Virus record (IMG/VR): IMGVR_UViG_3300037095_000075
Span: 1 to 22,937 of that record
Direction: 5' to 3' (one strand)
DNA from: a virus
DNA: 22,937 nucleotides
Positions 4,101 through 20,639 of this stretch are shown here, piece after piece; the first letter of the stretch is position 1, and every line of letters starts with the position of its first letter. The position numbers and the translations under genes were made by a program. The notes under the pieces were generated by a model. That model was not told the origin of the DNA and searched no databases. It saw nothing but the letters and a program-made list of their open reading frames with translations.

Positions 4101-4857
4101 AGTCGCCGGGATAGCCCGCGGTGCTCGGGCCCGCGTCGCCGGGGGCATGAACAGACCCGTTGACCGTGGCCGTTCCTGTGACCGTGAGCTGTACTGTAGC
4201 CCCTCCAACCGGCGTTGCAATAATCGCGGGATATGGGGGCTGGGTGTCCGTCCCGTTGTAGTCGTAGTCGGCGTTGACGCCGCCGATGTTCGTCCATGGC
4301 GGGGTGTTGGCGGGAAGCGAGAGCCATAGAGAGCTTGAATCGACGTTGATCGAGACTTGGACCGGGTACTGTGGCTCCATGATGCCCGTCTTTCGGGTCA
4401 GCATGTCGGAGCGCAGCTTGATCATCCCCGCGCATTGCTGCGAATCGGAGACAATAACCGTCGCCATCGAGCTATCGGCGATGTATGCCCACGGCTGCAC
4501 TGACTGATCGGGCTGGTTGATGCAGATCGAAGGAGGCTGGCCGGTCATGCCCGAATCGACTTCGGTTCCGTTGACGTAGAGTGCCCCGGAATCCGTAGCG
4601 ATGATGCGCACAAACCCGACTGCGGGGCCGTTGGGAGTCGTGTCGTTGAGCCGCACGATGGTGTTTGGAGCCGAGGGGTAGGTGTAGAGCGCCGCGCCCG
4701 TGGTGGGGCGTCCGGTGATGCGCCCCATAATGCGCTGGCGAATGTTCTGGAGATAGATGTACTCTCCTTCAGGAACCAAATCCGGCGCGACACGGGTATT
4801 CATCCCCCCTTTTACAAGGAATCTTTTGCCATTGGAACGGCGGCTATACCCGGCCAC
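1192..4857 (-). CDS. Very large tail/hub protein, propeller-like with a PA14-like insert
   Basis: About 1,221 aa, the largest gene in the window. I place the start at GTG 4857, not at upstream ATGs (4911, 4875), because AAGGAGG at 4864-4870 is exactly 6 nt upstream; this Shine-Dalgarno lies inside the 3' end of the HNH gene. The N-terminus (FLVKGGMNTRVAPDLVPEGE) resembles the opening of phage hub or DNA-stabilisation proteins that form beta-propellers. Residues about 420-540 (GSLWVPQGGTYSIQIQNKDQ, later GIYPFEIDWDYWYHSGRSLI) look like a PA14-type carbohydrate-binding beta-sandwich. Around residues 750-900 come propeller-like strands (FRASDGIYITNGGGDESLTD). It probably forms the short tail hub or nozzle. 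Domain calls are pattern-based, and an alternative is a large fibre or baseplate-like protein. Confidence 0.85.
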   Translation of the reverse strand: MAGYSRRSNGKRFLVKGGMNTRVAPDLVPEGEYIYLQNIRQRIMGRITGRPTTGAALYTYPSAPNTIVRLNDTTPNGPAVGFVRIIATDSGALYVNGTEVDSGMTGQPPSICINQPDQSVQPWAYIADSSMATVIVSDSQQCAGMIKLRSDMLTRKTGIMEPQYPVQVSINVDSSSLWLSLPANTPPWTNIGGVNADYDYNGTDTQPPYPAIIATPVGGATVQLTVTGTATVNGSVHAPGDAGPSTAGYPGDFIVSPLIVVFAFTDANGNIIAQATGMGAPPVVGNVGAGATLTVPYGAAQLQIGIDGQGGTFGNPALFSGSYLVEALVSTSAITKVSSIVGLINAAIWGDSPHSGPVSVYIWKNPNDGGTGTSRTTGTAQAASSNNSLIFDSTPEDGTVPVQWSTLNSSGSTIGSVPLFDPALESDGYQDFNACITGSLWVPQGGTYSIQIQNKDQIMFGVGGGATSTGGLVYGAAGQSITVVDGLPLLFVSTPNGEGGAVTNTISVTFPAAGIYPFEIDWDYWYHSGRSLIVEMAPTPGAGVATIPPLPQGVRTNVQYWAKPRATETGAQGNPGPASTIQQTPVLANLITSPYQTDPQVTVMDYYRQDEGLPNPTYVITGPNDGLGPVINGIQYNTQVEDALSDIAAANNQLMQVDDYEPFPTIGVPLAGKVTIVAGVVTWKSGNKFPLNMLAGTLMLIGSPAQNAYSLVSRPTSATTIVIPDVPDTIGDAAGDGVPYNIAQPILAQQATQSMWGPDAYGFFHAIDPTTNAYVWTKANNPDSAPQTNRLLLTSPSETLMGGGLINGISITFSTEHHWLMYPNFADAQATTLGIQGNQWNPILGSGKRGMFIRNCGCALGGKAFAFRASDGIYITNGGGDESLTDETLWNLFPHENFTPTPVVVGPFTVYPPNDSLPQTITYQNGYIYWDYRDVNGNRRTLVYGEAEHGWMVDVGQYPFTAHSSEYAPNVNDTAVGCNDNSLRVLQSGGTEVCTSMVGTVPDNSGDVRAPKRVSDVFVRAVVDAAGPVTVGLYANQFATALSGFAPASLTGTDALAPYIVDFGANQPQDVIDLEAVFSWNTSSGTQLDLWQPGFMPLPIAILSRVTDALTHGLSDWQGVYQIDLMYVATAPVTITMNLDGEAYPATVTQTWPAAGSLFVPAKIALKMFPNKFKTCSWQIQSSAPFYLFDCLCWIGAWERAGDFKRFNPFKMAKNTPDLEA

Positions 4858-5281
4858 TCTGCGCCTCCTTTCCATCGAATTCGATTCCCCGCCGTGCAGC
4901 AAGCCATTCAATAGAGTGTCCGTGCTTGAGGGTTATAAACACATGCGAATCGCTGGTTCGCAGAAGTTTTGCCCAATCAGTCAACAGCATCCTGAGTCCA
5001 AATCCCTCAACGTATCGATTACGGGCCGTATTCCTTCCCTGCTCTGTGGCAGTAGCCCACATGCAGTTTTCCGGGCAATAATTGCCGTTCCCGTCTTTCC
5101 GCTCGATGCTGGACCCTACAGGGGGATCACCCATATCGGCATAGAAATTATCGAATGAATTCCTCCACTTGTCACACATGGTGATTCCGCGCCCACCATA
5201 GAGCGGATATTTCTTGCAACGCGGGTTGTAGCAGCGTTCCTTGGCGTGGGACCACGATTTGTATGCCCTGGTTCTAGTCAT
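4844..5281 (-). CDS. Free-standing HNH-type homing endonuclease
   Basis: 145 aa. The core matches a common phage HNH family: SWSHAKERCYNP (9-20), YPLYGGRGITMCDKW (25-39), F..F..DMG..P (43-54), then SIERKDGNGNYCPENCMWAT (58-77) followed by EQ..N. The metal/catalytic region is the DGNGNY-P-NC-W segment. Residues 101-130 (LLTDWAKLLRTSDSHVFITL onward) resemble a helix-turn-helix used for DNA recognition by such enzymes. The start at ATG 5281 lies 7 nt after the adaptor stop (5289-5291); no good ribosome binding site is seen. Its 3' end overlaps the hub-gene start by 14 nt and contains that gene's Shine-Dalgarno. Base composition looks more AT-rich than its neighbours, consistent with later insertion. 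Enzymes of this type nick or cut DNA at allelic sites lacking the insert. Confidence 0.85.
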   Translation of the reverse strand: MTRTRAYKSWSHAKERCYNPRCKKYPLYGGRGITMCDKWRNSFDNFYADMGDPPVGSSIERKDGNGNYCPENCMWATATEQGRNTARNRYVEGFGLRMLLTDWAKLLRTSDSHVFITLKHGHSIEWLAARRGIEFDGKEAQSGRV

Positions 5282-12167: not shown

Positions 12168-15041
12168 TCACGTCGTAGCCACAACGGCCCTTCCGCCGCT
12201 GGCTGTGCCTTTCTGTTTGATTTTCCCTTGCCCCGGCTTTTTCGCCGGAGCACCGGAACCCGGAGCGCCCGGCTTAGGCCCAGGCTTACCTCCAGGGTCG
12301 GGAGGGTCCAGACCGAGCGCGTGCTGCAACTTCGCAATCTGCGCCTCGTCCGTAAGCTTCTCCTTGGCCCAGTTCAACACCTTCTCCTTGATCGTCGAAC
12401 CTTCAATGCTGCCCCAGTTCGACAGGTCAAACTCGTTTGCCAGCGTCTCAGGGTCAATCGGTACACCCTTGCCGAGTAGCGCCAGCAGGTTGAGCTTCTT
12501 CTGCGCCTGCGCGATGTAGTGCATCGAGTGCGGCGTCACGCTCACGCGGATGTTGCGAAGGAAATTCTTCGCTCGTTCCGACTCCGTGACTCCCGACTCG
12601 ACCGGGTTGCCTGCCGCGTCCGTTGTCTGCTCGCCCTCAAGATGCGACGGGATGATCGAGTATGGCTTGTAATCGAAGGTTGCCGGCGCAATCGCATCTA
12701 CGCCGACATAATCCGCAAGCACTCCCACGGGCATGTATTGAACGACCAATCCCAGGAAGATCCTCGCCAGGTCACGAAAGCCGCGCTCCATCGACCGCGA
12801 AGTTCCCATCACCGTTGGGCCTTCGGCGTCGAGCAGTTTTTCCGGGTCGGAGATGTTGGCGCGGAGCTTTTCGAGTGACTTGATTTGGTCGTGCCCCAAC
12901 TGGCGCATGATGCTCGCCTGAAGGAACTCGACAATCTTCATCACCCATTCGGGAATGTTGTAGCACCACTCCGGGAACGGAGGACGCAACACCGGCTCCT
13001 TGATGTCGCCATCCACTCCCCAGCCAATGCCGGGATCGAACGGGTCCAGCGACTCCGCTTGCCGTGACGTGAGCTTGCCTTGCTTGTCTCCAGTCGTGAT
13101 GTCCGTGTTGTACACCTTGCCAGGATTCGCCCTTGCCATCGCCACGCGGTAGATGTAGCGCATCAGGTCGTCGATGGCGTCCTGCGTGTTCGCCGTGCCC
13201 TGGAAGAGCGAGAACCCTGTATCCTCCCACGCCCATTCGTCCAGATAGAACGGCACCAGGGGCACCATGCCGTGCCAGTCGAACGCGGGCCCGTCGTACA
13301 TCAGAGCGTCATTGCAGGAGATCAGCAGACGCCGGTAGGGATACACCCGGCAATCGTCCTCAGTGGCCGGCCGCGTGACGTTCTTGCCGCCCTCGAAGCG
13401 CGTAATCATCTGGCCGACGTAAGGAACTGTGTAGGCCCAACTTGTGCCCGCCTGGCCCATCTCCAGCGGTTTACCAATTTGGTTCCCATCGGGTCCGAGT
13501 ACCGGGTTGCCCTGCTCGTCCACTTCGCCGTAGTTGATTCTCAGGTCGAGGACGTAAGTGTAGTAGATGTCGCAGTTGCCTGTAATTGTGATGGTATCGC
13601 CCTGCCTCATCAGCCATGTACCAAGCCCAGTGGTGGGGCACCATACATCCTCAGTGGATACCAGCTTTTTGGTCAGATTCTGCAAACCACGCTCTGCGTT
13701 GTGCAATAAGGTGAATGTCCGGCACGGATGCTCCTCAAGAACCTTTCTGCCGCTGGAAGTTGCGATTCCTTCAAGAGCGCACGCGAGCTTCATGGCGTCA
13801 TGGACAGGGCCAACATTTTGAGCGAACTGAGTGGTTCCCCTCTGCCCTTCTCCGTGCTGACGCTTGTGGCCCTCTCCGTAGAGCATCCCCACAATGAACG
13901 CTCGTCGCTCGCCTGAGGTCATCTTCAAAACCATCTGTTCGGCGTTTCCTCTTTCAAGAAACTGCTCAACCTCCATCGCATCTAATCCTGGACCATCGGG
14001 AGCGGGAGCGGCCTGTATCAGCCTGGTTTTCTGTCGAGTGCACTCGTCTAGCGTCCGCATTTCAGGCGCGTTGCTGTATGCGTCTTTCTTGTATTTCCCG
14101 ATGCGCCTCTTTACGGCCCAGCGGTGCTCTTTGGTGCACTTGACCGTGAACCCTTTTGTTCCGTACTGATAAACTTCCTTGTCTTGGAATAGATTGACGC
14201 CTTCCAGTCGGGTCCACTCACATCGCCCGGTTTCTTTGTCGTAACCCATAACCTCCTGCCCCACCGCAATTTCGTTGTATTTCTTCCAACCGGCGCGGGT
14301 TAGGATTTCCGAATTGAGGGGGACGCAAAATAATTCCTTCTTCGAGCCAAGCTGGTGCATCCGCCAGCGGTTGCGGTCGTAGGAGCGTTCATTGTTCCCG
14401 GAAGGCGTCCGGGCATAGGTCTTCTCCCCGAAAGGCTTGAGCTTCGATTGGAACTCCGGGAACCTTGCATGGGCCTCAGCAATGCCCGTCTGGACAACCA
14501 GAGTCACGATGTAGGCGTTCTGGTAGTTCCGGCCCCGCGGCAACTGAATTGGCAGCACGTCCGGCTGTCCCAGCGCCATGAACACGAACTCGCCATCGCC
14601 CATGCCAAACTTCGACCGCGAGTAAAACGGGTAGATGAACCCGGCGCCGGAGATGGCAGCGAATTGCAGTGCATCCTTGATGGCGCGATCCACAAACGAT
14701 TCCATGTAGATCGACTTAGCCACCTTGGACATCATGTTGCACTCGGCAAGAAACGCCTTGTTCTCGGTCGAGTAGCCCCAGTAGGGCCGGATGTCGGAGA
14801 GCGCCTCAACAATCTCCAGTACGCCGCGCTTGAGGTCGCCGGTGGTGAAGTTGGCCCACTTGGTAGAGACCTTGCCGCCCGTCTTGCCCGCGAGAATGTC
14901 CATCGCCCGTGTCAGGCTGGTGGAGCGGTTACTCTCCCGATACCATGTGATGCCTTGGTCGATGCACCGCTTGACGAAGCCATGCTTTACGTCGTCTGCT
15001 GATTCGTAATTTGGGCATTGCCAGCTCGTCTCTTGTTCCAC
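12168..15041 (-). CDS. Portal protein precursor containing an intein
   Basis: 957 aa as encoded; 706 aa after predicted removal of residues 239-489. The start is GTG 15041, directly after the upstream TAA, with AAGGTGA upstream. Portal features include a helical N-terminal region (KRCIDQGITWYRESNRSTSL), a conserved core (NTQDAIDDLMRYIYRVAMAR, VYNTDITTGDKQGKLTSRQA), and a charged, Pro/Lys-rich C-terminus. Portals form the 12-subunit ring at one capsid vertex through which TerL pumps DNA. The intein splits the sequence between ...LGSKKELF and CDIYYTYVLDLRINYG, which rejoin as a plausible continuous beta segment. Without splicing the portal would carry a 251-aa insertion and probably be inactive, so splicing is likely needed for virion formation. 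Confidence 0.9.
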   Translation of the reverse strand: MEQETSWQCPNYESADDVKHGFVKRCIDQGITWYRESNRSTSLTRAMDILAGKTGGKVSTKWANFTTGDLKRGVLEIVEALSDIRPYWGYSTENKAFLAECNMMSKVAKSIYMESFVDRAIKDALQFAAISGAGFIYPFYSRSKFGMGDGEFVFMALGQPDVLPIQLPRGRNYQNAYIVTLVVQTGIAEAHARFPEFQSKLKPFGEKTYARTPSGNNERSYDRNRWRMHQLGSKKELFCVPLNSEILTRAGWKKYNEIAVGQEVMGYDKETGRCEWTRLEGVNLFQDKEVYQYGTKGFTVKCTKEHRWAVKRRIGKYKKDAYSNAPEMRTLDECTRQKTRLIQAAPAPDGPGLDAMEVEQFLERGNAEQMVLKMTSGERRAFIVGMLYGEGHKRQHGEGQRGTTQFAQNVGPVHDAMKLACALEGIATSSGRKVLEEHPCRTFTLLHNAERGLQNLTKKLVSTEDVWCPTTGLGTWLMRQGDTITITGNCDIYYTYVLDLRINYGEVDEQGNPVLGPDGNQIGKPLEMGQAGTSWAYTVPYVGQMITRFEGGKNVTRPATEDDCRVYPYRRLLISCNDALMYDGPAFDWHGMVPLVPFYLDEWAWEDTGFSLFQGTANTQDAIDDLMRYIYRVAMARANPGKVYNTDITTGDKQGKLTSRQAESLDPFDPGIGWGVDGDIKEPVLRPPFPEWCYNIPEWVMKIVEFLQASIMRQLGHDQIKSLEKLRANISDPEKLLDAEGPTVMGTSRSMERGFRDLARIFLGLVVQYMPVGVLADYVGVDAIAPATFDYKPYSIIPSHLEGEQTTDAAGNPVESGVTESERAKNFLRNIRVSVTPHSMHYIAQAQKKLNLLALLGKGVPIDPETLANEFDLSNWGSIEGSTIKEKVLNWAKEKLTDEAQIAKLQHALGLDPPDPGGKPGPKPGAPGSGAPAKKPGQGKIKQKGTASGGRAVVATT
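13575..14327 (-). mobile_element. Intein in the portal protein, with degenerate homing-endonuclease region
   Basis: 251 aa, portal residues 239-489. The N-terminal splicing block starts at Cys239 (CVPLNSEILTRAGWKKYNEI). Block B has the T-x-x-H signature (KCTKEHRW, His306). The C-terminal blocks read DVWCPTTGLGTWLMRQGDT then ITITGN, followed by Cys490 (+1). The penultimate residue is Gly, not the usual His, as seen in a minority of inteins. Between the splicing blocks, about 150 residues include one LAGLIDADG-like helix (AFIVGMLYGEG, about 381-391); only one clear motif is seen, so endonuclease activity may be reduced or lost. The nucleotide composition looks more AT-rich than the surrounding portal. 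The frame is intact across both junctions. Confidence 0.92.
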
Positions 15042-17671: not shown

Positions 17672-18376
17672 TTACCTCTCAAACACAATTGGAGTGTTCT
17701 GGTTGAAATGCCGGGGATGGTCCGTGGACAACGTTCCCGACTCAAGCTGCTTGGGGTTGATGACGGCCATGATTGCCTTGGTGCGGTCCTCGGGATACTT
17801 CCACTCGTGCCCTCCCTCGGATTCCTTTTCTTCCCGCGCCTCACCCGCGTTGATCTGGATGGCCGTCTGAGAACCCTTCGGGATGGGGAGAATCTTGCCC
17901 GCTTTCAGCATCCACTCGCGGTCGGCGTAGCCCTTCGGCTTCTTCGCCTGCTTGATCGACGTGGCCACGATCTGCGGCAGGCCCGCCGAGAGCATCATCT
18001 GAGTCTGCATGTTGCCATAGAGGAACAGCGCGGACTGAACGACCTCCGCTAGCCGCAGCGATCCGACACCGGCTGCATGGGCAATTTCTTCCACGCTCAG
18101 GTGCTTCCTGTCTGTCTGTGTGCATCTGTCCCACACCTCAATGAACGATCTTGCGTCCTCGTCGTCGTGAGCGCGGAGAGCCTGGATGCAGTGCTCTACT
18201 CCGCCATCAATCGAGCGCAGCATCGGCGTCACGGTTGGTTCCGACTCCGGCTCCCACTCGCCATCCTCGTTATCCTGCTTCCAAAGGTTTTCGAGACGAG
18301 TGAGAGCCTTCGCCCGTGCAGCCTGGACGGTCAGGTTGTCTTGACGCTTTGGCCGGAATTTAGTTGGCCGGGGCAT
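17672..18376 (-). CDS. Terminase small subunit (probable)
   Basis: 234 aa. A basic N-terminus (PRPTKFRPKRQDNLTVQAAR) precedes helical segments. Residues about 95-120 (LSVEEIAHAAGVGSLRLAEV) look like a helix-turn-helix, fitting recognition of packaging DNA. The C-terminal part is charged (INAGEAREEKESEGGHEWKY). It lies directly before TerL, which starts 3 nt after its stop and in the same reading frame. Small terminases vary strongly in sequence, so the call depends mainly on context plus the HTH. Its ATG overlaps the 170-aa gene by 17 nt. Its last codons (GAG AGG) double as the ribosome binding site for TerL. Confidence 0.68.
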   Translation of the reverse strand: MPRPTKFRPKRQDNLTVQAARAKALTRLENLWKQDNEDGEWEPESEPTVTPMLRSIDGGVEHCIQALRAHDDEDARSFIEVWDRCTQTDRKHLSVEEIAHAAGVGSLRLAEVVQSALFLYGNMQTQMMLSAGLPQIVATSIKQAKKPKGYADREWMLKAGKILPIPKGSQTAIQINAGEAREEKESEGGHEWKYPEDRTKAIMAVINPKQLESGTLSTDHPRHFNQNTPIVFER

Positions 18377-18872
18377 TGGTTTGGATTCCGTATTCCTCAG
18401 TCAAATCCTCGGTAACCGGGCTCACTCCCGGAACCGTGGGCACGCCCATGTTCGCCACGCGCGGCTTCTTGCCGTTCGGCTTGAGCCTTCCCTTGTACTG
18501 CGATGGCTTGACCCACCGCTCGGCCGGGACGCCGTTCTCGTCGATCTGCACTGGGAGGTCCATGCCGCACTCTTCCCGCACCTGATTCGGCGGAGCGACG
18601 GGGATGTCGATGGTTTCCTTGATCTCCGGCCCGACTTCGGTTCCTTCGGGAAGCAAGTCCAGACCGAAGTCAATCACGAAGTCGTCTTGGAGCGCCGGAG
18701 AGAACGACATTGCCGGGGCGAACTCCACCGTTACCCGCGCCCTGTACCCCTGGTACGCCTTGTGGCTGTGAAAGTGGCCGTGAACCCGGAGGCGTTCGTA
18801 GACCTTGTGCATGATTGAGTCCAGAGCTTCGCTTCCACTCAGGCGTTTCGGGATTGACCGTTCCTTGGGCAT
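18360..18872 (-). CDS. Hypothetical protein upstream of terminase
   Basis: 170 aa from ATG 18872, chosen because GGAGGAGG lies just upstream; an in-frame start at 18893 lacks this. The N-terminus (MPKERSIPKRLSGSEALDSI) leads into a helical, His-rich segment (VYERLRVHGHFHSHKAYQGY), then beta-like sequence (ARVTVEFAPAMSFSPALQDD) and an acidic Pro-rich region. The C-terminal part is basic (QYKGRLKPNGKKPRVANMGV). No family is recognised. It overlaps TerS by 17 nt and the HTH gene by about 200 nt, so it is part of the packaging operon. A packaging or regulatory role is possible but not shown. Confidence 0.7.
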   Translation of the reverse strand: MPKERSIPKRLSGSEALDSIMHKVYERLRVHGHFHSHKAYQGYRARVTVEFAPAMSFSPALQDDFVIDFGLDLLPEGTEVGPEIKETIDIPVAPPNQVREECGMDLPVQIDENGVPAERWVKPSQYKGRLKPNGKKPRVANMGVPTVPGVSPVTEDLTEEYGIQTNAPAN

Positions 18873-19113
18873 GGTTTCCTCCTCCGAGGACAATGGGCTT
18901 CAACTCCTCATCCATCTGCTTCCAGTAGCGAATGCGGGCGGCGTAGAGGTTGAGCAGTTTTTGAAGGGTTCCGTTCTGGGGGCGGTGATGGCCGCGTTCA
19001 AGGTAGACGATGGTGTTGTAGTGGACTCCCGACATCTCCATCGCAGCTTTCTGCGTGAGACGCGCTCGCTTCCGAAGCGCCTTCATCCTGCCACCGCTCC
19101 ACTCGTCTGTCAT
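18670..19113 (-). CDS. XRE-family helix-turn-helix regulator
   Basis: 147 aa as an open frame. Residues 8-60 form a clear Cro/CI-type HTH (MKALRKRARLTQKAAMEMSG then VHYNTIVYLERGHHRPQNGT, LQKLLNLYAARI). After about residue 85 the sequence is low-complexity (Pro/Gly/Arg-rich) and lies over the 170-aa gene in another frame, so only the N-terminal half is clearly under selection. ATG 19113 has little Shine-Dalgarno; GATACT with an upstream TG (19124-19132) sits just before it, giving a possible near-leaderless mRNA. It probably regulates phage transcription, perhaps its own operon. The target is unknown, and its place in front of the terminase genes is unusual for a main repressor. Confidence 0.72.
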   Translation of the reverse strand: MTDEWSGGRMKALRKRARLTQKAAMEMSGVHYNTIVYLERGHHRPQNGTLQKLLNLYAARIRYWKQMDEELKPIVLGGGNHAQGTVNPETPEWKRSSGLNHAQGLRTPPGSRPLSQPQGVPGVQGAGNGGVRPGNVVLSGAPRRLRD

Positions 19114-19137
19114 CGCTCACAAGAGTATCACAACATG

Positions 19138-19572
19138 TCAAGAGGCACCAGAAACCGACTTCTGGCCGCGCCGGTAGGCTTCGATGATACCGGGGTTGTG
19201 TAGTGATTTGTATGGATATGGGTCAAGTGGGTCCATCAAGTCCTTGACAGCTTCCGGAACTTCCGGTCCAGGAGCAAGGAACATGCGGCGCTGCCACTCG
19301 GACAGAAAGCGGATCATCCCGTCAAAATAATTCTCCTGACGTTTCTGCTCGTATTCAGGCGTCCCCTTCGTTCCCCACGCCGATGAATGGCTCATGTATC
19401 CAATCGTAGGCAACTCGTCATACGTCTTCGGCACAATCGGATTCGCCGCCATCCAGCGAATCGCAGCTTCGAGAATCCTCCGCGATCCCTCTTCGGCGGT
19501 CACATAGCCGCTATAAGCGGCCCTGCCCGCTTGCAGCATCCCTTCTGGAACCTTGATCTTCACTTCACTCAT
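19138..19572 (-). CDS. Hypothetical accessory phage protein (144 aa)
   Basis: 144 aa from ATG 19572, which overlaps the stop of the upstream zinc-binding gene as ATGA; the longer open frame from 19887 runs through the promoter and leader and is not credible. The N-terminus (MSEVKIKVPEGMLQAGRAAY then EEGSRRILEAAIRWMAANPI) is a module common in phage accessory proteins. The C-terminus ends HNPGIIEAYRRGQKS, another recurring phage segment. The middle is charged and aromatic (QENYFDGMIRFLSEWQRRMF). The function is unknown. It is probably co-transcribed with the 60-aa gene from the promoter at 19859-19887. Confidence 0.72.
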   Translation of the reverse strand: MSEVKIKVPEGMLQAGRAAYSGYVTAEEGSRRILEAAIRWMAANPIVPKTYDELPTIGYMSHSSAWGTKGTPEYEQKRQENYFDGMIRFLSEWQRRMFLAPGPEVPEAVKDLMDPLDPYPYKSLHNPGIIEAYRRGQKSVSGAS

Positions 19573-19751
19573 CGTGTCCCCCCTTTCCGGTATCGCGCCT
19601 TGGCCTTCTTCCGGTTCGTTGCCGTGCATTTCTTGCACCGCTCCGTCCCTGGAACCAAAGGCTTCTTGCTGGAACAGTATCCGCACATACCCTCGGCAAC
19701 ACGTCTCATCTGCCATGCTCTCTGCCGGGATATGGTCGGTGCATCGGTCAT
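19569..19751 (-). CDS. Small zinc-binding (CxxC...CxxC) protein
   Basis: 60 aa. Cys pairs MCGYC and RCKKC, spaced by about 14 residues, should bind one zinc. The basic C-terminus (NRKKAKARYRKGGTR) suggests nucleic-acid binding. ATG 19751 has no Shine-Dalgarno and lies 7 nt after the 14-bp motif copy C; ATG 19709 (MRRVAEGM...) with GAGAG upstream is an alternative start. The stop overlaps the next gene as ATGA. The function is unknown. Small zinc-ribbon proteins are common in phage accessory regions, and this window has several. Confidence 0.65.
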   Translation of the reverse strand: MTDAPTISRQRAWQMRRVAEGMCGYCSSKKPLVPGTERCKKCTATNRKKAKARYRKGGTR

Positions 19752-19758
19752 AGAATTG

Positions 19759-19772
19759 GTGCGATATTACAC
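19759..19772 (-). promoter_or_regulatory. 14-bp motif, copy C
   Basis: The minus strand reads GTGTAATATCGCAC, identical to copy B. It lies in the leader between the promoter at 19859-19887 and the 60-aa gene, 7 nt before its ATG, where a ribosome binding site would be expected. A bound protein here could block initiation or elongation; that is inference. Confidence 0.45.
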
Positions 19773-19782
19773 TTGTGACTTG

Positions 19783-19851
19783 TGCGGAGCCGGGGTTTTC
19801 AGGGTGGCTCACCAGTCCATCCCCTATCTCAGCTTTCGCTGCGGCCCCGCA
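19783..19851 (-). promoter_or_regulatory. Foldable 5' leader (candidate cis-regulatory RNA)
   Basis: The predicted transcript from the promoter at 19859-19887 starts near 19852. Its first bases UGCGGGGCCG (19851-19842) can pair with CGGCUCCGCA (19792-19783) in a 10-bp stem with one G-U pair. Inside are CAGC-GAAA-GCUG, a GNRA-capped hairpin, and GGUG-AGC-CACC. This multi-branched shape resembles a riboswitch or other RNA regulator, but I do not recognise a known class. It is non-coding and directly precedes the 60-aa and 144-aa genes. Confidence 0.45.
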
Positions 19852-19858
19852 TAACCCC

Positions 19859-19887
19859 ACTCTAAGGGATTCCGGGATGGGTGTCAA
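19859..19887 (-). promoter_or_regulatory. Sigma70-like promoter
   Basis: On the minus strand TTGACA (19887-19882), a 17-nt spacer and TAGAGT (19864-19859, 4 of 6 to TATAAT). It lies just downstream of the 100-aa gene and should drive the 60-aa and 144-aa genes through the structured leader, possibly reading on into the packaging genes. Confidence 0.65.
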
Positions 19888-19893
19888 GAAAAA

Positions 19894-20196
19894 TCATTGG
19901 TTCATTGGGTGGGGTGGAACCACGACGACTTTACCGGCCATCGGGGATGGGATATTTATTGCGGCGGCGTCGTGGAGTCGTTGTGCTTCCCGTGCTCCGG
20001 CGCTGATTCGGATGCGGTGGGCGTTCATCGTTTCTTTCCAGTCAACAGCGTGTTCTCTTCTTGCTGCTACCAGTTTCGCCTTGGCAATAGACTTGCTCAC
20101 CGTCGCGGCGGCTGTTTTGCGGGCAGCTCCCTTTGTGAACCCTTTAGCTCTAAGTGCATTCTCGACTGCCTTGACCCATGGCTTGTTCTTCTTCAT
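19894..20196 (-). CDS. Small basic helical protein, hypothetical
   Basis: 100 aa from ATG 20196 with GGAG 8 nt upstream. The longer frame from 20412 has no ribosome binding site and unlikely composition. The product is Lys/Arg/Ala-rich and helical (MKKNKPWVKAVENALRAKGF, TKGAARKTAAATVSKSIAKA, KLVAARREHAVDWKETMNAH) and ends in a Pro-rich tail. It may bind nucleic acid. No family is recognised. It ends just before the promoter of the next transcription unit. Confidence 0.6.
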   Translation of the reverse strand: MKKNKPWVKAVENALRAKGFTKGAARKTAAATVSKSIAKAKLVAARREHAVDWKETMNAHRIRISAGAREAQRLHDAAAINIPSPMAGKVVVVPPHPMNQ

Positions 20197-20639
20197 CGAA
20201 TGTTCTCCGTCCGTATTTTGGACACACCTTCCGGTCAATTCCCCTCGGCATCTAGGGAGTTGTGCTGTGTTCTTGCCGCTCTCTTGGTTTCTTATGACGC
20301 CTGTTTTTGTTGATGCCTTAATGGACCTGGACGTATTGACCATTGGCGGATCGACTACCGCCCCGGAGCCAGGGAAACCCATCACCCGATGGGAACAGAC
20401 TTTCAAAACCAAGACAATCGACCGGGCGCCACGCCGGTCTGATCCCTTTCAGGCCCCTAACCCTGAGATTGGACCGGCAATGCTTGTGCGGTCTGGACCC
20501 GGCATCTCGCTCCTGTACGCGCCAGATTTTCCGGGGAGGAAGTCACCATGCCGGAACGCGGCCGAGGCGCACGTTTGCGAAAAACATGACGGAAAGCAAC
20601 GAATTGTCGTGTTTATTTGCATGTAGCTAGCTTCGACTC
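20197..20639 (+). other. Gene-poor stretch of about 440 bp
   Basis: No convincing gene on either strand. The long plus-strand frame here is mostly antisense to the 100-aa gene and has no good start. The only notable signal is GGGGAGG followed by ATG at 20548, opening a 13-codon frame that overlaps a second 14-codon frame (20586-20630) as ATGA. These are too short to call as genes. The stretch probably holds regulatory DNA for the flanking divergent units. Confidence 0.5.

Follow-up and report, generated by a model that had tools for sequence, protein, structure and literature searches.

A single-LAGLIDADG intein in a phage portal protein, with intein-free alleles in near-identical phages

The portal gene and its intein-free alleles

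The portal protein gene in the window (the whole 22,937-nt stretch analysed here, positions 1 to 22,937 of IMG/VR record IMGVR_UViG_3300037095_000075) carries an in-frame intein. The strongest evidence is that two nearly identical phages, L025 and L102, have portal genes in which the two extein parts meet cleanly at the predicted junction. L025 encodes the portal of the window with precisely residues 239–489 missing and has a clean empty site at the junction TTT/TGC; its DNA agrees with the extein DNA of the window at 2120 of 2121 positions (one base different). L102 shares 99.95% identity with the window across the 3.7 kb that lead to the junction, and it resumes beyond the intein. The insert is also absent from more distant portals (L026, L028, L095–L097, L101, L103, L105 and Tunturi_1), and intein-free homologues reach down to 29–31% identity. 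It is present in the portal of L001 (99.9% identical) and in the L023/L024/L027 lineage (portal about 72% identity). The residue matching +1 varies among intein-free portals: some have Cys there natively, and others have Val or Thr.

The original prediction had placed an intein at this site, and the near-isogenic intein-free alleles, the conserved splicing residues and a HINT-type fold bear it out. Its details also hold: the insert occupies 13575–14327 (251 aa), begins with Cys1, has the T-x-x-H block as T65-K-E-H68 and ends in ITITGN followed by Cys+1 (Table 1). Of the checks that it proposed, comparison with intein-free portals found the segment missing in L025, L102 and the more distant homologues, and comparison of residues 239–489 with intein families gave profile and fold matches to known inteins. 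One could read the segment instead as a native portal domain, given that it is in frame and has no Pfam match. That reading has a negligible probability in view of the insert-free homologues and the presence of the same element in unrelated proteins, and the empty alleles of L025 and L102 rule it out.

The assignment of the host protein as a portal rests on PHROG_156 ("portal protein"), which was matched by all seven of seven intein-free homologues (best 3.9e-22). Two cultured relatives, the Tunturiibacter phages Tunturi_1 and Tunturi_2, have the portal after the large terminase in the same gene order as the window; the Tunturi_1 portal is 31% identical to that of the window. The AlphaFold2 model of the intein-free portal had a pLDDT of 34, and the insertion point could therefore not be located on the portal ring, the gate by which DNA passes into the virus head.

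Table 1. Coordinates of the portal precursor gene and of the intein features in the window.
Feature	Position	Strand	Remarks
Portal protein precursor CDS	12168..15041	-	957 aa, GTG start; intein-free homologues match PHROG_156
N-extein, portal residues 1–238	14328..15041	-	Uninterrupted with C-extein in L025 and L102
Intein, portal residues 239–489	13575..14327	-	251 aa, in frame
C-extein, portal residues 490–957 and stop codon	12168..13574	-	First residue Cys+1 (13572–13574)
Cys1, N-terminal nucleophile, block A	14325..14327	-	Cys in 53/53 relatives
Block B: T65 (B:7), H68 (B:10), W70 (B:12)	14118..14135	-	By alignment
Single LAGLIDADG half, block E type, residues 121–170	13818..13967	-	By alignment to two-motif relatives
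Block F Cys230 (F:4) in VWCP	13638..13640	-	Invariant in 38-member alignment A2
Block G T249-G250-N251: penultimate Gly and cyclising Asn	13575..13583	-	Gly 52/53, Asn 53/53

Fold and family of the intein

The insert is a removable in-frame element with a HINT fold and splicing blocks A, B, F and G. AlphaFold2 modelled it with a pLDDT of 95.1 and a pTM of 0.92. The best PDB matches of this model in Foldseek are inteins (PI-SceI, TliVMA, NrdHF and DnaB inteins), and class 3 inteins occur among the structural matches. A profile built from 38 relatives matched inteins and LAGLIDADG endonucleases in the PDB: PI-PkoII (1.9e-8), NrdJ-1 (1.9e-7) and I-DmoI (1.4e-4). Pfam and NCBIfam searches with the window insert alone gave zero matches, and scans using those libraries thus overlook it. 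No cellular relatives were found in a scan of genome contigs.

Relatives with the same end blocks were found in portals, large terminases, DNA polymerases, metallophosphoesterases, DNA methylases, an integrase, a nucleotidyltransferase and a tape-measure protein; these host names come partly from record annotation and partly from our reading of the flanking sequence. Among 53 family inteins, Cys1, the block B His and the Asn are invariant (53/53 each), the penultimate Gly is found in 52 of 53, and the +1 residue is Ser, Cys or Thr. Trp B:12 is shared by most relatives, not all. The Cys at F:4 is also seen in L053, L059, L063 and L085, in alignments and sequences. Another 62 stretches matching the block F DNA pattern have Cys1 wherever the N-terminus is readable; since the pattern itself fixes the Cys, they are uninformative on F:4. 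No natural class 3 variants at position 1 were found in the family where the N-terminus falls in the ORF. Penultimate Gly together with an invariant block F Cys thus marks a stable and widespread phage intein design.

Several family members differ in layout. L007 (195 aa, in a DNA polymerase A) and L079 (163 aa) are endonuclease-free mini-inteins. The tape-measure protein of Gordonia phage Mcklovin (L045) has a family intein ending in TSN+S, not TGN. A terminase-like ORF, L019:2477-5944, contains an apparent second HINT-type insert (CFIAGTKITTEYGDKNIEEIKEGDRVLT...) downstream of its first intein.

Splicing residues and intein class

The insert is very probably a class 1 (Cys1-initiated) phage intein with the splicing and mobility outlined here. 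Judged by the residues, the portal would first be made as a 957-aa precursor. Cys1 would attack the peptide bond before it, Cys+1 would then accept the N-extein, and cyclisation of Asn251 would release a 706-aa portal. Since the insert splits a conserved segment, the unspliced portal is probably unable to assemble, and virion assembly can reasonably be taken to depend on splicing.

The class 1 residues, Cys1 plus Cys+1 in the window, occur family-wide. The window intein also has the complete WCT motif (W70 at B:12, C230 at F:4 and T249 at G:5), which defines class 3 (PMC3196547, PMC7664689) and which is complete in at least 35 of the 53 relatives. Together with the class 3 inteins among the structural matches, this raises the question of class 3-like splicing with block F Cys230 as the first nucleophile. 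We regard such splicing as improbable. Class 3 inteins generally have no nucleophile at position 1, whereas Cys1 is present in the window and in all readable relatives; Trp B:12 is not conserved while Cys F:4 is; and class 1 inteins that have Cys at F:4 have been described before and are polyphyletic (PMC3196547). Trp B:12 is often lost in the family and Cys1 never, which makes class 1 chemistry the best reading. A natural intein with both Cys1 and WCT is a starting point for testing possible origins of class 3 inteins; an attempt to graft WCT onto gp41-1 failed (PMC7664689).

Inteins can turn into pseudogenes (PMC3196547), and the portal might then be found only in cleaved or full-length form. 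Loss of splicing is very unlikely here: the catalytic residues are all intact, and the splicing parts have the lowest dN/dS of the gene (about 0.03–0.04 between the window and L027, with dS near saturation).

His is the usual penultimate residue of inteins. The Gly found here in its place had been taken by the original prediction as a sign of transition to a mini-intein, a view that its presence in 52 of 53 family members speaks against. A Gly-bearing relative is known to splice well: the RDF intein of mycobacteriophage Bethlehem has a penultimate Gly, and changing it to His slows splicing (PMC5050341). The RDF-type intein of Abrogate is a distant relative of the window intein (BLASTP 2e-5). 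The Gly is thus no sign of decay and is, by the family alignment, the normal state of these inteins.

The single LAGLIDADG half

Aligned with its two-motif relatives, the window intein covers their second LAGLIDADG half alone and lacks the first (block C) half; of the two motifs (blocks C and E) of a two-motif monomeric enzyme, only the second is present. As predicted, one LAGLIDADG-like helix is seen, FIVGMLYGEG at residues 144–153. It bears the acid E152, giving the single motif plus acidic residue seen in homodimeric endonucleases of the I-CreI type, and a strand with Gln170 follows. Of 13 single-motif inteins, 12 retain the catalytic acid and all 13 the Gln after it. The layout is common to inteins of 33–72% identity in several host proteins: portals (including L053), metallophosphoesterases at two sites and polymerases. 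In a tree that rests on few columns, the single-motif inteins as a whole did not form one supported group; what was recovered is a clade of eight of them that includes the window (support 82/88; inner six 98/97). Its members occupy a single portal site and no fewer than two metallophosphoesterase sites. In L058, two single-motif family inteins lie at two sites of one metallophosphoesterase-like ORF, and in the second of them (L058b) the catalytic E is replaced by R.

A homodimeric endonuclease is expected to have a palindromic target. At 11 insertion sites, symmetry was no better than in shuffled sequences (homing site best 4 of 9 outer positions), and the pseudo-palindromic target of the I-CreI type was not seen at any of them. 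Between the window and L027, the half domain (residues 105–217) has a dN/dS of about 0.19, with dS near saturation; this value and the conserved acid and Gln argue for a maintained domain, possibly a homodimer. Because the target sites lack symmetry, we infer such a dimer rather than assert it: paired as a homodimer, the single half may have kept the ability to cut DNA and so drive homing, a proposal that we put just short of an even chance. Alternatively, it may be retained merely as part of the fold.

A splicing-competent intein with a dead half-endonuclease, heading to a mini-intein, is the reading that corresponds to the original prediction. It differs from our explanation in the endonuclease only, and the splicing claim is common to both. 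A dead half-endonuclease is a real contender, to which we give somewhat less than an even chance: the block C half is missing, complete loss does occur in the family (L007, L079), L058b has no catalytic acid and no palindromic target was found. On the other side are the purifying selection on the half domain, the retention of the acid in 12 of the 13 inteins and the occurrence of the single-motif form at several sites and hosts, which a decaying element would not readily reach. For the same three reasons, neither the single helix as a sign of transition nor the picture of an intein turning into a mini-intein finds support.

Mobility of the intein and genome mosaicism

The intein DNA appears to be mobile now or to have been so recently, being present or absent in otherwise near-identical phages; occupancy of the same portal site in distant portals also points to movement. 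Between the window and L027, intein and extein are equally diverged (71.7% and 71.8% identity). Between the window and L053, which has a single-motif intein at the same portal site, the intein is 56% and the extein 31% identical, which suggests horizontal spread.

Around the intein, the window and L025 agree without a mismatch for 516 nt on the upstream side and for about 3.6 kb on the downstream side; past the downstream identical end, divergence is about 4–9% in most bins. Identical flanks of this kind could be the result of co-conversion. A second, equally identical block lies further upstream, and co-conversion was dropped as proof of homing since the pattern is not diagnostic. The mosaicism is general and not tied to the intein; it is compatible with homing and does not prove it. 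Window positions 17938–20437 show high divergence and gaps against L025 between near-identical blocks, as in a mosaic genome.

Relation to known inteins

The window intein is real and mostly ordinary: phage inteins of its kind are already known. The DNA polymerase I intein of Phapecoctavirus/Justusliebigvirus phages, for example coliphage PaulScherrer (MZ501100), where it is annotated as an intein, matches it over the full length with 33% identity (245 aa). It has the same single LAGLIDADG half, VWCP block F and TITGN+C end, but a polymerase host and another insertion site. The Bethlehem-type RDF (metallophosphoesterase) intein of A1 mycobacteriophages (Abrogate copy, L043) shares Cys1, the F:4 Cys, the penultimate Gly and the TGN end; it differs in its length of 317 aa, two LAGLIDADG regions, lack of Trp B:12 and host. 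The class 3 inteins (Mch/Msm DnaB1 and MP-Bethlehem DnaB) have the HINT fold, Trp B:12, Cys F:4 and Thr G:5 in common with the window intein, but differ at position 1, as described above. The AFIS DnaB was examined for an intein and has none.

That a portal is a less common intein host, as originally suggested, is right as a matter of degree, but such hosts were already known. Portal inteins are reported from cluster C1 mycobacteriophages (PMC5050341) and have the portal host in common with the window intein. The portal of Gordonia phage Woes (L040) is annotated "contains intein"; this intein belongs to the same broad family, but it has 354 aa and two motifs, and its flanks are dissimilar to the window site. 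The portal ORFs of L010 and GX15bay have inteins by sequence. No description of single-LAGLIDADG inteins as a group was found in the open-access literature searched, the coverage of which was incomplete.

What is new is the portal site, the natural pair of intein-plus and intein-minus alleles, and the half-endonuclease intein lineage with testable mobility. The near-identical phages with and without the intein are useful for measuring its cost, its homing and the dependence of virion assembly on splicing. A bolder picture, which we consider unlikely as a whole, would be a compact phage intein lineage that lost one LAGLIDADG half, has a homodimeric homing endonuclease and is still invading new proteins (the portal, two metallophosphoesterase sites and possibly several polymerase sites), with Cys1 plus WCT as a model of the class 1 intein from which class 3 has been proposed to descend.

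Other features of the window

Two further genes on the minus strand may be mentioned. An ORF of about 145 aa at 4847–5281, with no Pfam match, resembles a free-standing phage endonuclease of the HNH/AP2 type (YPLYGGRGITMC...W...DMG...SIERKDGNGNYCPENCMWAT). The gene at 18673–19113 encodes a helix-turn-helix protein (Pfam HTH_31, 8.4e-8).
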